A stretch of DNA of 35,400 nucleotides from a virus: positions 1 to 35,400 of the IMG/VR virus record IMGVR_UViG_3300031787_000431; one strand, given 5' to 3'. The notes under the pieces were generated by a model. The model searched no databases. It worked only from the letters and a program-made list of their open reading frames with translations, and had not been told where the DNA came from. Made by a program: the position numbers and the translations under genes. This document shows, piece after piece, positions 2,825 to 10,728 of this stretch. Every line of letters starts with the position of its first letter. Position 1 is the first letter of the stretch.

Positions 2825-3072
2825 GCAAGGCACTAGAAGCGGCTGTGAAGGCTGCACACGACCTTCTACTGAAGGAGCCGGGGCCGACATTCCATGACGT
2901 GTCTGTCGGCAAAGATGGCATCCGCGCCATCATCACCGCGTTTCTAGACGCGGCTGCGCGAGACGATGAGGTGTGCAGGCTGGTGTGGGTGGCGACGAAC
3001 TTCGAAGCGAACGAGATCGAAGAGGGGCGCGCTGCGATCCTCGAACTGAAGGAGGCGGTCAATGCATCATGA
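2821..3072 (+). CDS. Hypothetical protein
   Basis: An 83-aa, mostly helical acidic protein with no recognised domain. It starts on an ATGA overlap and its end overlaps the next ORF by 11 bases. Codon use is like its neighbours. Function is unknown. Confidence 0.55.
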   Translation: MSKALEAAVKAAHDLLLKEPGPTFHDVSVGKDGIRAIITAFLDAAARDDEVCRLVWVATNFEANEIEEGRAAILELKEAVNAS

Positions 3073-3313
3073 CTTCGACGAAGACGAGTGGGAGCGGGTC
3101 GTTGAAACTCGTCCCTGCACAAGTTGCAACGGCGATCTTCGGCAATGCAATGGCAGGTGTAACGGATCGTTCTCATACGGGATGAGGCGCAGGACACCCG
3201 CCGAAGTGGCGCGGATTAAGTCCGAACGCCGCATTTCCGCTGAAGACCGCATCTTGGCGGAAGCTGATGCCATTCGCGCACGCCGAGCCGCACTGAAGGA
3301 GAGCGTGGGGTGA
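3062..3313 (+). CDS. Small zinc-ribbon-like protein
   Basis: An 83-aa protein. Near residue 18 begins CTSCNGDLRQCNGRC, giving CxxC...CxxxC, a likely zinc knuckle. It is followed by a basic patch (MRRRTPAEVARIKSERR) and a charged helix. A nucleic-acid-binding accessory role is plausible but not shown. It overlaps the genes on both sides (11 bases before; GTGA after). Confidence 0.55.
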   Translation: MHHDFDEDEWERVVETRPCTSCNGDLRQCNGRCNGSFSYGMRRRTPAEVARIKSERRISAEDRILAEADAIRARRAALKESVG

Positions 3314-5259: not shown

Positions 5260-5639
5260 GTGAACACCCCATGACCGCGCTGGCAGAGAAGGTGGAGGCA
5301 CTTGCCGGGCCGTGCCGCGAGACGGATGCAAAGATTTACGTCGCTGTCTACATCACACGGGGTGAGACAGGCCGTCCGATGGATGACGTTTACGAGCCTG
5401 CCATCGACGTGCCCCGCTACACCGCCTCCGTCGATGCTGTCCTCGCGCTGATCGCGGAGAAGATGCCGCGGGTTAGGTGCGAGATCGTTGGCGGCCTCGA
5501 CTATTCATCCGCTCGTATCGTCACCGGATGGGGGGCTCGTCGGCGAGCGCTGACATACACCGTCGATCGTCCCGACAATTACGCCGCGATCTGCGCCGTC
5601 GCCGCCTTCCTCCGCGCCATGGAGAACGACAATGGCTGA
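5256..5639 (+). CDS. Hypothetical protein, MTALAEKVEA family
   Basis: A 127-aa protein with a Cys pair absent and no known domain. It has an N-terminal helix (MTALAEKVEALAG), a beta-rich middle (AKIYVAVYITRGE), and a C-terminal helix (AAICAVAAFLRAMEND). It begins on an ATGA overlap with the DUF551-like gene; an internal ATG at 5271 matches the start of the deleted paralogue at 8182 and could be used instead. The end overlaps the next gene by 8 bases. Confidence 0.6.
   Translation: MSEHPMTALAEKVEALAGPCRETDAKIYVAVYITRGETGRPMDDVYEPAIDVPRYTASVDAVLALIAEKMPRVRCEIVGGLDYSSARIVTGWGARRRALTYTVDRPDNYAAICAVAAFLRAMENDNG
5264..5299 (+). repeat. 36-bp direct repeat, copy 1 (copy 2 at 8175-8210)
   Basis: The 36 bases from 5264 to 5299 recur exactly at 8175-8210. 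Each copy covers the start of an ORF encoding MTALAEKVEA. A further near-identical block of 15 bases occurs downstream of both copies (5429-5443 and 8220-8234). This indicates a duplicated gene; see the remnant at 8182-8262. Confidence 0.85.
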
Positions 5640-6012
5640 GACGCCGCGCGATTGGCTCATCCGCAAGGGTGGCTATTTCTATCGACCCGACTTCTGCGGC
5701 TACACGACCAGGAAGGACCAAGCAGGCCGCTACACGGAAGCAGAGGCGCGCAGCGAGGCTGCTGTCGAGCCGTGGCACATGAAAGCCATCCATGAAGGCG
5801 AATGGCCCGACACGCCAAAGACAGATGGCACCGTATCCGCCTCCACCCACACCCGCGCCATGGAGGCGCTGAGGGAGGCGCGGGAGGTGCTGGCGGAAAT
5901 CAGAGACGGCTACTTGGCCGACCAATCCGCCGAGCAGCAATTCGTGTGGGCTCAGCGCCGCGCAATCACCGCCCTCTCCCGCATCGCCGCCATCCTGAAG
6001 GACGAGCCATGA
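5632..6012 (+). CDS. Conserved phage hypothetical protein
   Basis: A 126-aa protein. The N-terminal DWLIRKGGYFYRPDFCGYTT with GRYTEAEA is a motif I recall in small proteins of alphaproteobacterial phages. The C-terminal half is a long amphipathic helix, possibly coiled coil. No function is known. It overlaps the preceding gene by 8 bases and the following one by ATGA. Confidence 0.6.
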   Translation: MAETPRDWLIRKGGYFYRPDFCGYTTRKDQAGRYTEAEARSEAAVEPWHMKAIHEGEWPDTPKTDGTVSASTHTRAMEALREAREVLAEIRDGYLADQSAEQQFVWAQRRAITALSRIAAILKDEP

Positions 6013-6809
6013 CCCGCGTCGTCTCGTGGTTCTCGTGCGGGGCCGCAAGTGCGGTCGCCACCAAGCTCGCCTTGCAGGCTGCCCGTCTGCCGCACGGCGC
6101 AGGCGAGGTCGTGATCGTCTATTGCGACACGTCCAAGCGGGAGCACCCGGACAATATGCGGTTTCTCCGCGACTGCGAAGCGTGGTTCGGTCAGCCGATC
6201 CTGATCCTCGGCAATGACGAGTACGAGCGCGACCCAGATGTCGTGTTTCGCAAGACCCGCTTTCTTGTCGGGCCGTCCGGTGCTCGCTGCACCGCCGAGT
6301 TGAAGAAGAAGGTCCGGTGGGGCTTTCAGCGCCCCGACGACGTTGTGATCCTCGGCTACACCAGCGAAGAGCACAAGACGCGCTTCGAGCGGACGCAGAA
6401 GGCGGAGCCGATGACGCGGTTCTGGCCAATCCTGCACGAGCACGGCCTGTCCAAGGGCGATTGCCTGGCGATGCTCGAAAGGGCCGGCATTGAACTGCCC
6501 GCCATGTACCGCCTCGGCTACCAGAACAATAACTGCATCGGCTGCGTCAAAGGACAGGCCGGCTACTGGAACAAGATCCGGCGCGACTTCCCCGAGCGGT
6601 TTGCAGAGATGGCGCAGATCGAGCGCGAGCTTGGCCGGGCCATCTGCAAGCGCGAGTGGAAGGAGGACGGCGTGCGCCGGCTGGAGCGCATCCCACTCGA
6701 CCGCCTGCCGCCAGACCTTGGGCGCTACGAAGACGAGCAGGAAATCCAGTGCGGCATCCTTTGCCACACGACCGAACTGACGCCAGCAAAGAAGCGGAGG
6801 GCAGCATGA
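6009..6809 (+). CDS. PP-loop / PAPS-reductase-like protein
   Basis: A 266-aa protein. The PP-loop is at the N-terminus (VVSWFSCGAASAVATKLA, about residues 4-21), followed by VVIVYCDTSKREHPDN and the conserved region GARCTAELKKKVRW. In the C-terminal half NNNCIGCVKGQAGYW gives CxxC, and CGILC lies near the end, so a metal or Fe-S site is possible. The fold activates a substrate by adenylation; family members act on sulfate, tRNA or DNA (for example the phosphorothioation enzyme DndC). The phage substrate cannot be read from sequence. No other sulfur-modification gene is nearby. Confidence 0.75.
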   Translation: MTRVVSWFSCGAASAVATKLALQAARLPHGAGEVVIVYCDTSKREHPDNMRFLRDCEAWFGQPILILGNDEYERDPDVVFRKTRFLVGPSGARCTAELKKKVRWGFQRPDDVVILGYTSEEHKTRFERTQKAEPMTRFWPILHEHGLSKGDCLAMLERAGIELPAMYRLGYQNNNCIGCVKGQAGYWNKIRRDFPERFAEMAQIERELGRAICKREWKEDGVRRLERIPLDRLPPDLGRYEDEQEIQCGILCHTTELTPAKKRRAA

Positions 6810-7040: not shown

Positions 7041-7493
7041 CTACCGGCCCAACTTCTCGCGGCGGGCAATCTCGCGCTCGACAGATTCGCGGATGAAGTC
7101 CGAGCGCTTCTCCTTTTCGGCCAGCAAGGCGTCGATCCGCGCAAGCGTCCCCTGAGGGAAGCGCGCTGGCGTCTGCTCGTCGTTGATCCGCTTCCGTCCC
7201 ACGGTGGGTCTGGCCTTCTCGCCTTCGCCATTGCACGCGACAGCCTCACGGGCGGCCTCGGTTGCTGTGGCGGCATCTACCGCAAACCATTCGCCATGGG
7301 CGTGGGCGTGCCTCAGAAGCCAATGCGCTCGCAACTCTATATCGCGCGATCTCTCAACCGGAACCGGGAACGTAGCATGAATTTTTACCCGAGCCGCGTG
7401 ACCGGTTTGGATGCCTCGCAACCGACTTCCGGGCTCTTTCGCCAGCCCGATCTTCATCGGCCCGGCTTCCGCTCCTGCCACATAAATCTGCAT
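7041..7493 (-). CDS. GIY-YIG (T5orf172-like) domain fused to ribbon-helix-helix domain
   Basis: A 150-aa minus-strand gene inside a plus-strand block. Residues 1-75 look like the T5orf172/MUG113 branch of GIY-YIG: IYVAG at the start, PMKIGLA, SRLRGIQTG, a conserved E and H, and GEWFAV. Residues about 97-150 look like a ribbon-helix-helix DNA-binding domain: GRKRINDEQ, ARFPQGTLARIDALLA, RSDFIRESVEREI. RHH proteins usually bind palindromic operators and control their own genes, and a nested palindrome lies just upstream (7499-7532), between this gene and the divergent 7570 gene. It may be a regulator, a nuclease, or both. Confidence 0.75.
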   Translation of the reverse strand: MQIYVAGAEAGPMKIGLAKEPGSRLRGIQTGHAARVKIHATFPVPVERSRDIELRAHWLLRHAHAHGEWFAVDAATATEAAREAVACNGEGEKARPTVGRKRINDEQTPARFPQGTLARIDALLAEKEKRSDFIRESVEREIARREKLGR

Positions 7494-7498
7494 TTGTA

Positions 7499-7532
7499 GA
7501 TATCACCTATCTTGACAAGATTATCTGATATC
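7499..7532. promoter_or_regulatory. Divergent promoter region with nested palindromic operator
   Basis: An AT-rich gap between divergent genes. ATCTTG-A-CAAGAT (7509-7521) is a perfect 13-base palindrome, and GATATC copies at 7499-7504 and 7527-7532 flank it almost symmetrically. TTGACA (7512-7517) sits inside the palindrome as a rightward -35; a weak -10 (CTAAAT, 7535-7540, 17-bp spacer) follows. Binding at the palindrome would block the -35. The RHH domain of the gene at 7041-7493 is the obvious candidate binder. Confidence 0.65.
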
Positions 7533-7569
7533 AACTAAATAGACGATGTCACTTAAGGAGGCAAGAGCA

Positions 7570-7959
7570 ATGCCGCGTACCATTGAATCCTGCATCAAAT
7601 CCGCCCGCCGCGCTTACAAACTAGAGCGCCGAGAACTCCGCGGAGGAGAAGTTTCCTGGATGGCCGTCGATCGCAGCGGCGTCGGGAGAGGCGTCATCGG
7701 GACCAAAATCGAGGGGGAGGACTACCTCGAAAAAACAGTCATGTTTCATGCGCTAAAGTCGTTCGACCCGAAGTACGACTGGCACGACCATGACTGGCAC
7801 ACGCTCGGCGGGCCAGCCGAAAGTCGCTGTCGGCAGATGATTGCTTGGCGGATGGAGCGCGAAGCCGCCGCCGAGGCGCAGCATGGATTTAGAACACTTG
7901 CCCTCTTGATGGCGGGGCAGGTGCGCGCTGCCGCCAGGAAGGGTAGCGCCAATGGCTGA
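7570..7959 (+). CDS. Hypothetical protein at the head of the second early cluster
   Basis: A 129-aa basic protein, Trp- and Arg-rich, with YDWHDHDWHT in the middle that could bind a metal. No family is recognised. The start at 7570 is chosen because AAGGAGG lies 8 bases before it; an in-frame ATG at 7546 lies upstream of that site. It is the first gene downstream of the palindromic promoter region, so it heads the transcript running to 10728. Confidence 0.65.
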   Translation: MPRTIESCIKSARRAYKLERRELRGGEVSWMAVDRSGVGRGVIGTKIEGEDYLEKTVMFHALKSFDPKYDWHDHDWHTLGGPAESRCRQMIAWRMEREAAAEAQHGFRTLALLMAGQVRAAARKGSANG

Positions 7960-8185
7960 CGAATGGACCGATGCCGACCGTGAGCGGTTTGCCGGCATCT
8001 TGGGTCGATCCTCCAACCGCGCCCGCAATCAGCGAGCCGAAGAGGGCCGCCGCCGCGCGGCTCTCAACTTCATCGCTCCTGTCTTCGATGACGTGATGCG
8101 CCGAAGTGACGGCGACCTCCCGACCGGCGCGAGGGAACTGGTCGCGGGCGCAATGCTCGGCCTCACCCGAAAGGACACCCCATGA
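7952..8185 (+). CDS. Hypothetical protein
   Basis: A 77-aa charged, mostly helical protein (MADEWTDADRERFAGIL..., with an Arg-rich middle). It overlaps the previous gene by 8 bases and the small remnant at 8182 by ATGA. No domain is recognised. Confidence 0.55.
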   Translation: MADEWTDADRERFAGILGRSSNRARNQRAEEGRRRAALNFIAPVFDDVMRRSDGDLPTGARELVAGAMLGLTRKDTP

Positions 8186-8262
8186 CCGCGCTGGCAGAGA
8201 AGGTGGAGGCCCTCTCCCGCGTCGACGCTGTCCTGAAGGAGGACGAAAATGGTCAGCGATGA
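8182..8262 (+). pseudogene. Internally deleted copy of the 5256-5639 gene
   Basis: A 26-codon frame, MTALAEKVEALSRVDAVL then KEDENGQR. Its first 29 bases lie in the 36-bp exact repeat of 5264-5299, and its SRVDAVL part matches the SVDAVL part of that gene. The stretch between the two blocks is 129 bases there and 9 bases here, an in-frame loss of 120 bases. The end (EDENG) also resembles the parental C-terminus (MENDNG). It still has coupled start and stop overlaps, so it may be translated as a peptide. Confidence 0.6.
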
Positions 8263-8506
8263 CTTTTGCGAGCACGACTGGCCCGGCAGCGGGTGCAAGG
8301 AATGTGCGGCAGCGTGGGAGCGAGAGAAGGCCAAGCGCGGCGAGCGCATACGTCGCTGCATTCACTGCCTGCCGCTTTCGGAGCCGTGTTCCGACTGCCT
8401 TGACGATGCGGCAGCCGCCCAGGAGCGGGAACAATCGACACTGCGGAGGCGCATATCTCGCGCGCTGAAAGCCGCCCTCACCAAACGAGGCACAAGCAAT
8501 GTCTGA
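8249..8506 (+). CDS. Small double zinc-knuckle-like protein
   Basis: An 85-aa protein with CEHDWPGSGCKEC near the N-terminus and CIHCLPLSEPCSDC in the middle, giving two Cys/His clusters that could bind zinc. A basic helix (RRRISRALKAAL) follows. A nucleic-acid-binding role is plausible. It overlaps the remnant and the following gene (8 bases). Confidence 0.6.
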   Translation: MVSDDFCEHDWPGSGCKECAAAWEREKAKRGERIRRCIHCLPLSEPCSDCLDDAAAAQEREQSTLRRRISRALKAALTKRGTSNV

Positions 8507-8849
8507 AATTCCAGAAATCGCACCGCCGTCATTTGATACTGGAGACGAACCGCCGCACGCGCCCGCGTCGCATATGTCCCCGCAAGCAAAAGCGGTGGCC
8601 GCGCGCATGGAAGCCGATCTAGCGGTCGCCGCCAAGGACGCCGAGATCACCCGCCTCCGGGCGCTGGTCGAGGAGGCGCGGGAGGCGTTGGAGCCGTTCG
8701 TTCCGCCGCATCAGTATTGGATGGACGAGTATGCGAACGACGCGCTCACGCCGCTCAGTCGCGTCACATGGGGCGACATTCGCCGCGCCCGCGCCACCCT
8801 CACCAAGGCCAAGGCCAAGGCCAAGGCCAAGGCCAAGGAGCAGTCATGA
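8499..8849 (+). CDS. Coiled-coil protein ending in a Lys-Ala repeat
   Basis: A 116-aa protein. The N-terminal 30 residues are Pro-rich. A coiled-coil segment (AEITRLRALVEEAREALEP) follows, and the C-terminus is a run of KA dipeptides coded by a hexanucleotide repeat (see 8805-8838). The tail resembles a histone-like basic tail and could bind DNA. The repeat number is probably variable between isolates. No family is recognised. Confidence 0.55.
   Translation: MSEIPEIAPPSFDTGDEPPHAPASHMSPQAKAVAARMEADLAVAAKDAEITRLRALVEEAREALEPFVPPHQYWMDEYANDALTPLSRVTWGDIRRARATLTKAKAKAKAKAKEQS
8805..8838 (+). repeat. AAGGCC hexanucleotide tandem repeat
   Basis: Five perfect AAGGCC units (8805-8834) and a partial sixth. 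The period of six keeps the frame, so a gain or loss of units changes only the length of the KA tail of the 8499-8849 protein. Confidence 0.9.
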
Positions 8850-9475
8850 CCGAAGACCTGCGAAAGGCCGCAGAGGCGGCGACACCGGGGCCGTGGGTCG
8901 GCTTTTCCGACAAGGGCAAGCTGGCGGCCATCATGCCGGCTGGGCGGCCCGGTGACGTGTGCGTCTTCGAGCAGCCACCGTCTGATGAAGACGGGCGCTT
9001 CATGCTGCTCGCCAACCCCGCCGCGATCCTCGCCCTCTACGCCGAGCTGGACGCCGCCATAGCCCGCGCCGAGAAGGCGGAGGGGGAGATTACCCACTAC
9101 CGCCAAGACACCGGCTACGTGCTCGGATGGAATGCGGGATGGGATGAGGCCTTCGGTCGCCTGAAATTCCCGACGATGCTGCGGAAAATGTGGAGCGGTG
9201 GCGAGGTCCAACGCTGGCTTGACGAGCAAAAGGCCGAGCAGAACGGACCCCCGGACGGATCGCTGTCCGAGCGTCTGGCCGCCGCCGAAGCCTCCCTCGC
9301 CGCCATTACGGCAGAGAGGGATGCGTTGCAGGCGGACAACGAGCGACTGGCAGCGGAAGCCTACCGCGACACGCTGGTCAAGGTTGTCCGGGTGGAACTG
9401 GCGCAGGAGAAGCGCCTCCGACTTAGCTACGAGCGCAAACTTGCTGCCCTCAAGGAGCCCACCAATGCCGAGTGA
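8846..9475 (+). CDS. Ea22/Ead-like phage protein
   Basis: A 209-aa protein. The N-terminal LRKAAEAATPGPW block, followed by DGRFMLLANPAAILALYAEL, is the signature of the lambdoid Ead/Ea22-like family. The C-terminal half is a long coiled coil. Family members are accessory early proteins of unknown biochemistry. It starts on an ATGA overlap and ends overlapping the next gene by 11 bases. Confidence 0.75.
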   Translation: MTEDLRKAAEAATPGPWVGFSDKGKLAAIMPAGRPGDVCVFEQPPSDEDGRFMLLANPAAILALYAELDAAIARAEKAEGEITHYRQDTGYVLGWNAGWDEAFGRLKFPTMLRKMWSGGEVQRWLDEQKAEQNGPPDGSLSERLAAAEASLAAITAERDALQADNERLAAEAYRDTLVKVVRVELAQEKRLRLSYERKLAALKEPTNAE

Positions 9476-10004
9476 CGAGATGGTCGAGAAGGCGCTTCAG
9501 CCAGAGGTCGAGGACGACAACGGCTCCCTCTGCGTGATGTGGCACAGGAGCGGAAAGATGTACGCGCTGACCACGAAGCCAGACGGATCGGTCGTTGCTA
9601 CCGTGTCGCCGTTTTCGCGGTCGGCCCCGCCAGTCGCGGTCGGTGTCGAGGCGCTGTTCGCCGCCCTCACCGCCGCCATGGGGGAGGAGAAGCCGGTGGC
9701 GTGGCGGTCACGCTGGACCTACCCAGACGTATCGAGCGCCTGGATTATCACGCCGCATCGCCCCCAAGACACGACGCCACGCGGGCATCTTGCCACCTAC
9801 GTGTGCGAGCCCCTCTTCGCCCACCCGTCCAGAGAGGACGTGGTGGAGGAGACGATCCCCGATGCGGCGGTTGAGGCATTCCTGCTCTCGTTCTACCCCG
9901 GCATGACCGTCGAGGAGATGGCGATGCACAACGGCGAAGACCTGCGTCCGGGCGCGCGAACTGCTCTTGCCGCCGCCATCCGCAAGCTGGGGGAGCGGTC
10001 ATGA
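9465..10004 (+). CDS. Hypothetical protein
   Basis: A 179-aa protein. The start at 9465 overlaps the Ea22-like gene by 11 bases. The first 50 residues look beta-rich (LCVMWHRSGKMYALTT). A middle segment with WRSRWTYPDVSSAWIIT and YVCEPLFAHP resembles a motif seen in small phage proteins that end in '...PLYAHP'. A helical C-terminus follows (PGARTALAAAIRKLG). No function is known. Confidence 0.6.
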   Translation: MPSDEMVEKALQPEVEDDNGSLCVMWHRSGKMYALTTKPDGSVVATVSPFSRSAPPVAVGVEALFAALTAAMGEEKPVAWRSRWTYPDVSSAWIITPHRPQDTTPRGHLATYVCEPLFAHPSREDVVEETIPDAAVEAFLLSFYPGMTVEEMAMHNGEDLRPGARTALAAAIRKLGERS

Positions 10005-10243
10005 CATGGGCCGATAAGTCACGACACGCCATAGAGGCGGCCCTTCGCACCCTGCCAGGGGATGCGAACGAGGACGACAGGCGCAAGGCCATCGACGCAG
10101 CCTATCCGTTCGGAGAACGCAGCCTTTTCCCCTACAAGGCGTGGCTTCGCGTCCGTCGAGAATACCTGCGGCCGAAGAACGGCGGGGTGCCTCGGGGATA
10201 CATGTCGCCGCTGGACAGGGCGAAGCTCAGGGCTATCGGATGA
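10001..10243 (+). CDS. Conserved small phage protein
   Basis: An 80-aa protein, MTWADKSRHAIEAAL then AYPFGERSLFPYKAWLRVRREYL. I recall this arrangement (MTWADKSR..., YPFG...YKAW...REYL) in other alphaproteobacterial phages. It is basic and Trp/Tyr-rich and of unknown role. It is coupled by ATGA overlaps on both sides. Confidence 0.65.
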   Translation: MTWADKSRHAIEAALRTLPGDANEDDRRKAIDAAYPFGERSLFPYKAWLRVRREYLRPKNGGVPRGYMSPLDRAKLRAIG

Positions 10244-10404
10244 TATTGCCCTACATCTACCGCTGGGATCGACAGGGCCGGAAGGGCCAGCGGTGCAACG
10301 TCACGGCGCGGGGGGCTATGAACTCCTGCCGCGTCGAGTTCGATGACGGCTACCGGATGATCACCAGCCGGAACGCTATCAGGAAGGCGAAGGACGATGA
10401 CTGA
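10240..10404 (+). CDS. Conserved small phage protein
   Basis: A 54-aa protein, MILPYIYRWDRQGRKGQRC ... NSCRVEFDDGYRMITSRNA. It reads as a compact beta barrel-like domain; the pattern recurs in phages but has no known function. The start overlaps the previous stop by ATGA. It was found by following the overlap chain. Confidence 0.65.
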   Translation: MILPYIYRWDRQGRKGQRCNVTARGAMNSCRVEFDDGYRMITSRNAIRKAKDDD

Positions 10405-10537
10405 TCTGGTCGGGGCTCGCCGGGGTGGGATATGCGGGCAGACGGTGGATGCTGTCTGGCGCAACGAACACGCCCCAGAACGAGCGGCCTACCGCGCCAT
10501 GATCGAAGCCGGCAGGATCAGGGAGGACGGGAAGTGA
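10397..10537 (+). CDS. Very small hypothetical protein
   Basis: A 46-aa frame, MTDLVGARRGGICGQTVD..., helical in its second half (APERAAYRAMIEAGRI). It overlaps the previous gene by 8 bases and the next by GTGA, which is the main support. No family is recognised. Confidence 0.5.
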   Translation: MTDLVGARRGGICGQTVDAVWRNEHAPERAAYRAMIEAGRIREDGK

Positions 10538-10728
10538 CGGAAGCAGACGCAGTTGTCGCGCTTGGCCTTGCGCTCCAAGGGATGCTTCTATCGATCAAGG
10601 GGATGGCGTGGGTGTGGCGAACGATGACGCCACTAATCGGTCAGGCGCGGCAGTCTGAGCTACATGCCCGGCAAGCTCAGGCCCGCGCCGAGGCGTATCG
10701 GCAAGAGGCGTATCGGTTGGCGACCTAA
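10534..10728 (+). CDS. Small hydrophobic/helical protein, last rightward gene
   Basis: A 64-aa protein starting with GTG in a GTGA overlap. A hydrophobic segment (VVALGLALQGMLLSIKGMAWVW, about residues 7-28, listed in two parts: VVALGLALQGML and LSIKGMAWVW) may be a membrane helix. A Gln/Ala/Arg-rich helix follows. It ends in a 4-base overlap with the convergent DUF6378 gene, with no terminator between them. Confidence 0.55.
   Translation: MTEADAVVALGLALQGMLLSIKGMAWVWRTMTPLIGQARQSELHARQAQARAEAYRQEAYRLAT

Follow-up and report, generated by a model that had tools for sequence, protein, structure and literature searches.

Within the stretch of viral DNA analysed here (35,400 nucleotides, referred to as the window), the minus strand at 7041–7493 carries a real gene, an open reading frame of 150 amino acids. 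Across a 76-bp gap, a cluster of small genes runs in the opposite direction. The features of this locus, in positions of the window, are as follows.

7041–7493, minus strand: GIY-YIG/ribbon–helix–helix (RHH) fusion gene (open reading frame, both domain profiles, a full-length fusion in locus L005)
7245–7487, minus strand: T5orf172/MUG113 GIY-YIG domain, amino acids 3–83, with Arg24 and Glu53 retained (Pfam, alignment of the fusions, pLDDT)
7050–7202, minus strand: YlcI/YnfO-type RHH domain, amino acids 98–148 (NF041551, predicted helices, many stand-alone homologues)
7494–7509, plus strand: predicted operator site 1, TTGTAGATATCACCTA, directly before the start codon of the fusion gene
7509–7521, no strand: 13-base palindrome ATCTTGACAAGAT, real but probably incidental
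7512–7541, plus strand: putative divergent promoter, with TTGACA at 7512–7517, an 18-bp spacer and TAAATA at 7536–7541
7522–7537, plus strand: predicted operator site 2, TATCTGATATCAACTA, in the spacer between −35 and −10 of the divergent promoter
7540–7555, plus strand: predicted operator site 3, a degenerate copy reading TAGACGATGTCACTTA; its 18-bp distance from site 2 matches that in relatives
7556–7561, plus strand: AGGAGG ribosome site of the divergent gene, which has its ATG at 7570
7570–7959, plus strand: first gene of the divergent accessory cluster, 129 amino acids, without a family match
7952–10728, plus strand: rest of the divergent accessory cluster, small genes (open reading frames), probably controlled by the operator array

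One gene joins a GIY-YIG domain to an RHH domain

An earlier note on this DNA had claimed that one minus-strand gene unites a T5orf172-like GIY-YIG domain with an RHH domain, and comparison with curated profiles confirmed a fusion of a GIY-YIG-superfamily N-terminus to an RHH-type C-terminus. Residues 3–83 scored above the cut-offs of Pfam MUG113 (PF13455; 36.4 bits, cut-off 22.3) and T5orf172 (PF10544; 27.3 bits, cut-off 20), and residues 106–145 above that of NCBIfam NF041551, YlcI_YnfO_N (33.9 bits, cut-off 30). We assign the C-terminus to the RHH domains because of this last score and because relatives within the module resemble RHH_1 and Arc: the stand-alone member L294 matched Pfam RHH_1 (24.3 bits, cut-off 20.5), and the stand-alone member L296 was a near-match to both RHH_1 and Arc, below cut-off. 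The predicted DNA-contact strand of the RHH in the window reads Q-T-P-A-R-F.

The earlier note had also proposed predicting the structure of the two domains. AlphaFold, given an alignment of 32 relatives, returned a two-domain model with a mean pLDDT of 90. Its N-terminal domain follows the order β-β-α-β-α (pLDDT about 87–98), which fits GIY-YIG. The C-terminal domain consists of an extended segment followed by helices at 116–123 and 130–149 (pLDDT about 90), the strand–helix–helix order expected of an RHH; single chains only were modelled, and the RHH monomer fits an unpaired RHH chain. The linker at approximately residues 101–110 was weakly predicted. A Foldseek comparison of two models with the PDB gave no significant match, for the N-terminal domain included; a PDB sequence search with the whole protein gave spurious weak matches only, and the RHH profile reached CopG at an E-value of 0.59.

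The predicted operator is a GATATC array

The three places in the entire window that best match the extended operator motif TAGNNGATATCNNCTA lie next to one another in the gap, with 1, 1 and 2 mismatches at sites 1, 2 and 3, respectively. The cores of the first two are GATATC hexamers at 7499 and 7527 that are conserved across relatives; the third, overlooked in the earlier note, is the degenerate copy GATGTC at 7545–7550, and its site lies directly behind the putative −10. The sites are spaced 28 and 18 bp apart, and spacings of about 18 and 24–28 bp recur in many loci, often with a further copy about 35 bp on. Because a consensus promoter scan reported no promoter in the gap, the divergent promoter is assigned by conservation: its −35 block recurs in relatives as ATTGAC/GTCAAT, although its −10 is weak (3 of 6 positions). 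A GGAGGCAAG-like leader also recurs in many relatives, before divergent genes that are mostly unrelated.

The earlier note had instead taken the perfect 13-base palindrome over the −35 as the operator and the GATATC copies as its frame. Both elements exist where it placed them, and the palindrome is indeed perfect and overlaps TTGACA, but it is not special: the window holds 11 perfect palindromes with 6-bp arms and a 1-base loop, and shuffling the 76-bp gap produced one in 2% of cases, whereas two or more GATATC copies arose in 1 of 5,000 shuffles. The palindrome was not found in the relatives, where the same block reads GTCAATAGG; the sequence of the window, GTCAAgaTAGG, is explained as a 2-base variant of that block. 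With chance-level quality and no conservation, the palindrome was ruled out as the operator, a role that falls to the conserved GATATC array by prediction, and we regard the palindrome-centred reading as very improbable.

GATATC sites accompany related RHH genes

A scan with the RHH alignment identified 26 loci in viral contigs and 26 more in genome contigs. Upstream of these related genes, GATATC is present two to four times within the divergent promoter, at stereotyped distances. In a non-redundant set of 51 RHH genes from Alphaproteobacterial phages, prophages and plasmids, with 160 bp taken upstream of each, the resulting 8,160 bp contained 119 GATATC copies and the other 281,631 bp of the same loci 77, a 53-fold enrichment. 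The same four-copy array lies on the Methylobacterium plasmid pAMS5c; two relatives in viral sequences (L013 and L018) have degenerate sites only.

The association also held in the reverse direction. In the viral collection, the results for loose patterns of two or three GATATC sites were dominated by chance matches, and these patterns were set aside for the specific pattern GATATC-N6–14-GTCAATAGGNGATATC, which uses DNA only and no protein information. This pattern returned 16 loci from the viral collection, with an RHH open reading frame directly downstream in 15, although this search and the protein search overlap in part, several of the 16 contigs having already been found by protein. The RHH proteins recovered include two very diverged ones (26 and 41 bits), and the sixteenth contig breaks off in the leader, at the point where the conserved V-G-R start of an RHH begins to appear. 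The conserved sites beside the gene are strong evidence that the array is the cognate operator of an RHH autorepressor. Binding of the RHH to the GATATC array and repression of its own gene are thus strongly supported predictions, and it is from comparison that we infer the fusion, its RHH family, the identity of the operator and the autoregulation. The uncharacterized YlcI/YnfO family would thereby gain a concrete predicted operator.

As a separate observation, L006, L007, L015 and other four-site loci have their fourth GATATC just upstream of, or inside, the N-terminal coding region of the regulator, where it may force the recurring ‘ISD/VIS’ residues.

Contact strand and operator core vary together

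Among loci whose RHH has an EQ(T/M)PxR(F/L) contact strand, 32 of 33 carry at least two GATATC copies, as do 5 of 18 loci with other strands (Fisher p = 2e-7, a value uncorrected for the kinship of the sequences, which inflates these statistics in general). Loci with other strands often carry repeats of another core instead: GATATG with ENMHARF or EDMVARF strands (L291, L295), GATAAC with FTAVRL (L294), AAACG-type repeats with ATVRF or TTIRL (L297, L298) and GGTATC with EKTMARF on a Sphingobium plasmid (L323). The operator core thus tends to change when the contact strand changes, as expected of a protein–DNA recognition pair, and strand changes accompanied by core changes would amount to a readable recognition code.

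On two Sphingomonad plasmids (L323 and L324), a YlcI/YnfO gene at approximately 2880–3180 and the parAB region point away from each other, and the repeats are of the GGTATC/GATACC type in place of GATATC; there the module, its recognition code altered, may regulate genes for plasmid partition.

A mobile module before varying accessory genes

The genes divergent from the RHH differ between loci and are mostly unrelated to one another; on the Sphingomonad plasmids the module faces parAB. The constant module therefore consists of the RHH, the array and the promoter, placed before varying accessory genes. On this comparison it is a mobile autorepressor–operator module, one cassette reused before many unrelated gene clusters of Alphaproteobacterial phages and plasmids. 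No family above cut-off was found for the members of the accessory cluster of the window that were searched, and PADLOC matched neither the fusion nor this cluster, its single match being a neighbour outside them.

Control of the cluster from 7570, which the earlier note had suggested, gains support from the comparative evidence for the RHH–operator pair, and the RHH would repress the cluster as well as itself. The same note had spoken of a self-regulated switch; comparison supports the self-regulation but not a role as the main genetic switch. A 41,571-base contig (IMGVR 3300042691_016303) is 99.97% identical to the window over the 11,705 bases compared. This near-identical genome carries about 8 kb that is absent from the 35,400-base record and links the end of the window to its start (locus L319). 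L319 holds a separate pair of helix–turn–helix (HTH) genes: the one at 5323–5535 exceeds Pfam cut-offs, and the other, at approximately 5628–5972, is CI-like, weaker and below them. This pair ruled out the RHH as the main immunity repressor or CI–Cro switch, and the RHH is therefore probably a secondary regulator of the accessory cluster.

Fusions are few and likely arose more than once

Among 27 RHH loci in phage sequences (the 26 viral contigs and phage DMCA), intact fusions occur in four: the virus of the window, L005, L019 and L025. The remaining loci have stand-alone RHH proteins of about 50–95 amino acids. The L005 fusion is full-length and 69% identical to the protein of the window. In a search of approximately 780 Alphaproteobacterial genomes, no fusion was found among the candidates scored (up to nine per genome) at the thresholds used. 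On a tree of 58 columns, a single clade of the four fusions was rejected (p-AU 0.004), and L025 fell inside a well-supported clade of stand-alone RHHs (98/99). From this 58-column placement, at least two origins are likely; that is, the GIY-YIG fusion likely arose more than once.

All four fusions share an unchanged Arg24 and Glu53, together with the K-I-G and G-E-x-F motifs. Between the window and L005, the GIY-YIG part has a pN of 0.26 and a pS of 0.77, the latter saturated, which points to purifying selection on this part. The GIY-YIG part replaces the short N-terminal tail of the regulator. We considered whether fewer operator sites in the fusions might be a sign of self-protection and dropped the idea, as the missing fourth site falls where the GIY-YIG segment sits. 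The fusion is patchy in its distribution, at a fixed place in the module, and we found no near-identical phages of which one has the fusion and the other an empty allele.

Relation to known systems

The RHH repressors Arc, Mnt, MetJ and CopG act on tandem or palindromic operators. Their β-ribbon recognition, autoregulation and repeated palindromic promoter sites are also predicted for the RHH of the window, but they belong to another sequence family and none is known to have a nuclease domain. Closer are the stand-alone YlcI/YnfO (NF041551) RHH proteins of phages and plasmids, by curated score the same family as the C-terminus in the window. Stand-alone members carry the same GATATC array; the protein of the window differs from them in its N-terminal GIY-YIG domain. 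A literature search found no paper giving an operator for YlcI/YnfO.

I-TevI of phage T4 is both a GIY-YIG homing endonuclease and a transcriptional autorepressor, and its cleavage at the operator where it represses is about 100-fold poorer than at its homing site (PMC2988022). Like the fusion, it combines a GIY-YIG domain with a DNA-binding domain, and, as predicted for the fusion, it represses its own promoter. Unlike the fusion, it lies in an intron and has a long zinc-finger linker, another DNA-binding domain and a GIY-YIG domain of another subfamily; the fusion has an RHH as its DNA-binding part, a short linker and a tandem predicted operator.

In Odn (Gp88) of phage ICP1, a T5orf172 domain and a borrowed binding domain form a weapon (PMC8263062). 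Odn and other T5orf172 chimeras resemble the fusion in that their DNA-binding domain also occurs nuclease-free in other elements (PMC8263062, PMC10448857). Odn, however, directs a RepA_N domain against the replication origins of satellites, whereas the partner in the fusion is an RHH repressor and its site a predicted promoter operator. T5orf172 fusions are known with CapR-type zinc fingers and with RepA_N (PMC10448857); we found no mention of an RHH partner for the T5orf172 chimeras in PMC8263062 or PMC10448857, and a literature search found no paper pairing T5orf172 with an RHH. T5orf172 joined to a DNA-binding domain is thus already known, and what appears new is the RHH partner with a defined predicted operator. 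RHH repressors would be added to the few DNA-binding domains that T5orf172 nucleases have taken up, with repressor and cutter sharing one address.

What the fusion protein may do

We propose that the locus is a copy of the mobile repressor–operator module that gained a GIY-YIG domain, represses through GATATC and probably keeps an active nuclease, an account that we hold, as a whole, to be fairly probable. For the geometry of dimer binding and the repression of the cluster, as for cleavage and its targets, we infer the following. An RHH dimer would insert its β-ribbon into the 16-bp palindromic sites centred on GATATC, with approximately Q107, P109 and R111 as contact residues. The three sites lie in and around the divergent promoter and before the start codon of the regulator, so binding would shut off both the regulator and the cluster from 7570. 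The GIY-YIG part, probably an active nuclease, would at the same time be brought to GATATC arrays. It would be of most use at arrays that belong to rival elements or to relatives carrying the plain module; at home, the fusion protein would mainly repress. DNA cutting by the GIY-YIG part is plausible because the Arg and Glu are retained and the domain is under purifying selection.

The GIY-YIG part could alternatively have lost its nuclease activity and serve as an extra oligomerization or contact domain, so that the protein acts just as a stand-alone RHH does. Most relatives manage without a GIY-YIG domain, and nothing evident would protect the operator of the protein from the protein itself. 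The four invariant features (Arg24, Glu53, K-I-G and G-E-x-F), shared by fusions of which at least two are independent, the purifying selection and the nuclease activity of Odn, which has a similar residue set (PMC8263062), nevertheless weigh against such a plain repressor, which we consider possible though on balance unlikely.

Carried to its full extent, our proposal describes a repressor turned operator-directed nuclease that silences its own accessory genes and cuts, or homes into, the array of competing phages and plasmids. We offer this more specific version tentatively and think it rather unlikely; if true, mobile elements in conflict would be using the shared operator as an address tag.

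Two forms of such targeting can be weighed separately. As a homing endonuclease, the fusion would cut the GATATC arrays of related phages with the plain module, and repair templated by the fusion phage would copy the GIY-YIG segment into the recipient and so spread the nuclease. The predicted target adjoins the insertion point, the ATG of the fusion lying just behind site 1 as the stand-alone ATG does in L006, L007 and L012. The patchy, multiple occurrence of fusions fits as well, as do the T5orf172 genes known as homing genes at exchange boundaries (PMC10448857) and the precedent of I-TevI, which both represses and homes. Yet both GATATC cores are retained in the array of the fusion itself, so that self-cutting would have to be avoided somehow; the paired phages with and without the fusion were not found, and independent fusions with different GIY-YIG domains fit simple domain shuffling too. 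We therefore consider homing unlikely.

As a weapon in the manner of Odn, the fusion would destroy competing phages and plasmids that bear the same operator. Such a role would exploit an array common to many phages and plasmids with different adjoining genes, and a direct precedent exists in Odn, whose T5orf172 domain is paired with a DNA-binding domain that the competitor also has. The fusion's own array would be attacked too, however, and the loci show no sign of co-residence or target escape, which leaves this form distinctly unlikely.

RHH domains often serve antitoxins as their DNA-binding part, and through palindromic repeats they control their own expression. A single chain that combines a nuclease toxin with the RHH antitoxin restraining it is nevertheless highly improbable here, as stand-alone RHH genes are usually not joined to GIY-YIG, PADLOC gave no match and the constants of the module are RHH and operator, with the nuclease as the optional part. 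Our preferred reading remains a GATATC-binding autorepressor that gained a probably active GIY-YIG domain.

Other features of the virus

Just past the window end in the near-identical virus, at 339–791 on the minus strand of L319, lies a second T5orf172/MUG113 gene, stand-alone and also of 150 amino acids (Pfam, 29.0 and 28.2 bits). In the window, the plus strand at 6006–6809 carries a gene of the phosphoadenosine phosphosulfate reductase family (phrog_424, 1.7e-50; also PADLOC SspD, 3e-12). The early region contains a 39-base direct repeat, ACACCCCATGACCGCGCTGGCAGAGAAGGTGGAGGC, at 5264–5302 and 8175–8213, whose copies are 97% identical and span a possible start codon. A small accessory open reading frame ends in a run of Lys-Ala repeats (AKAKAKAKAKAKE) at 8800–8849.
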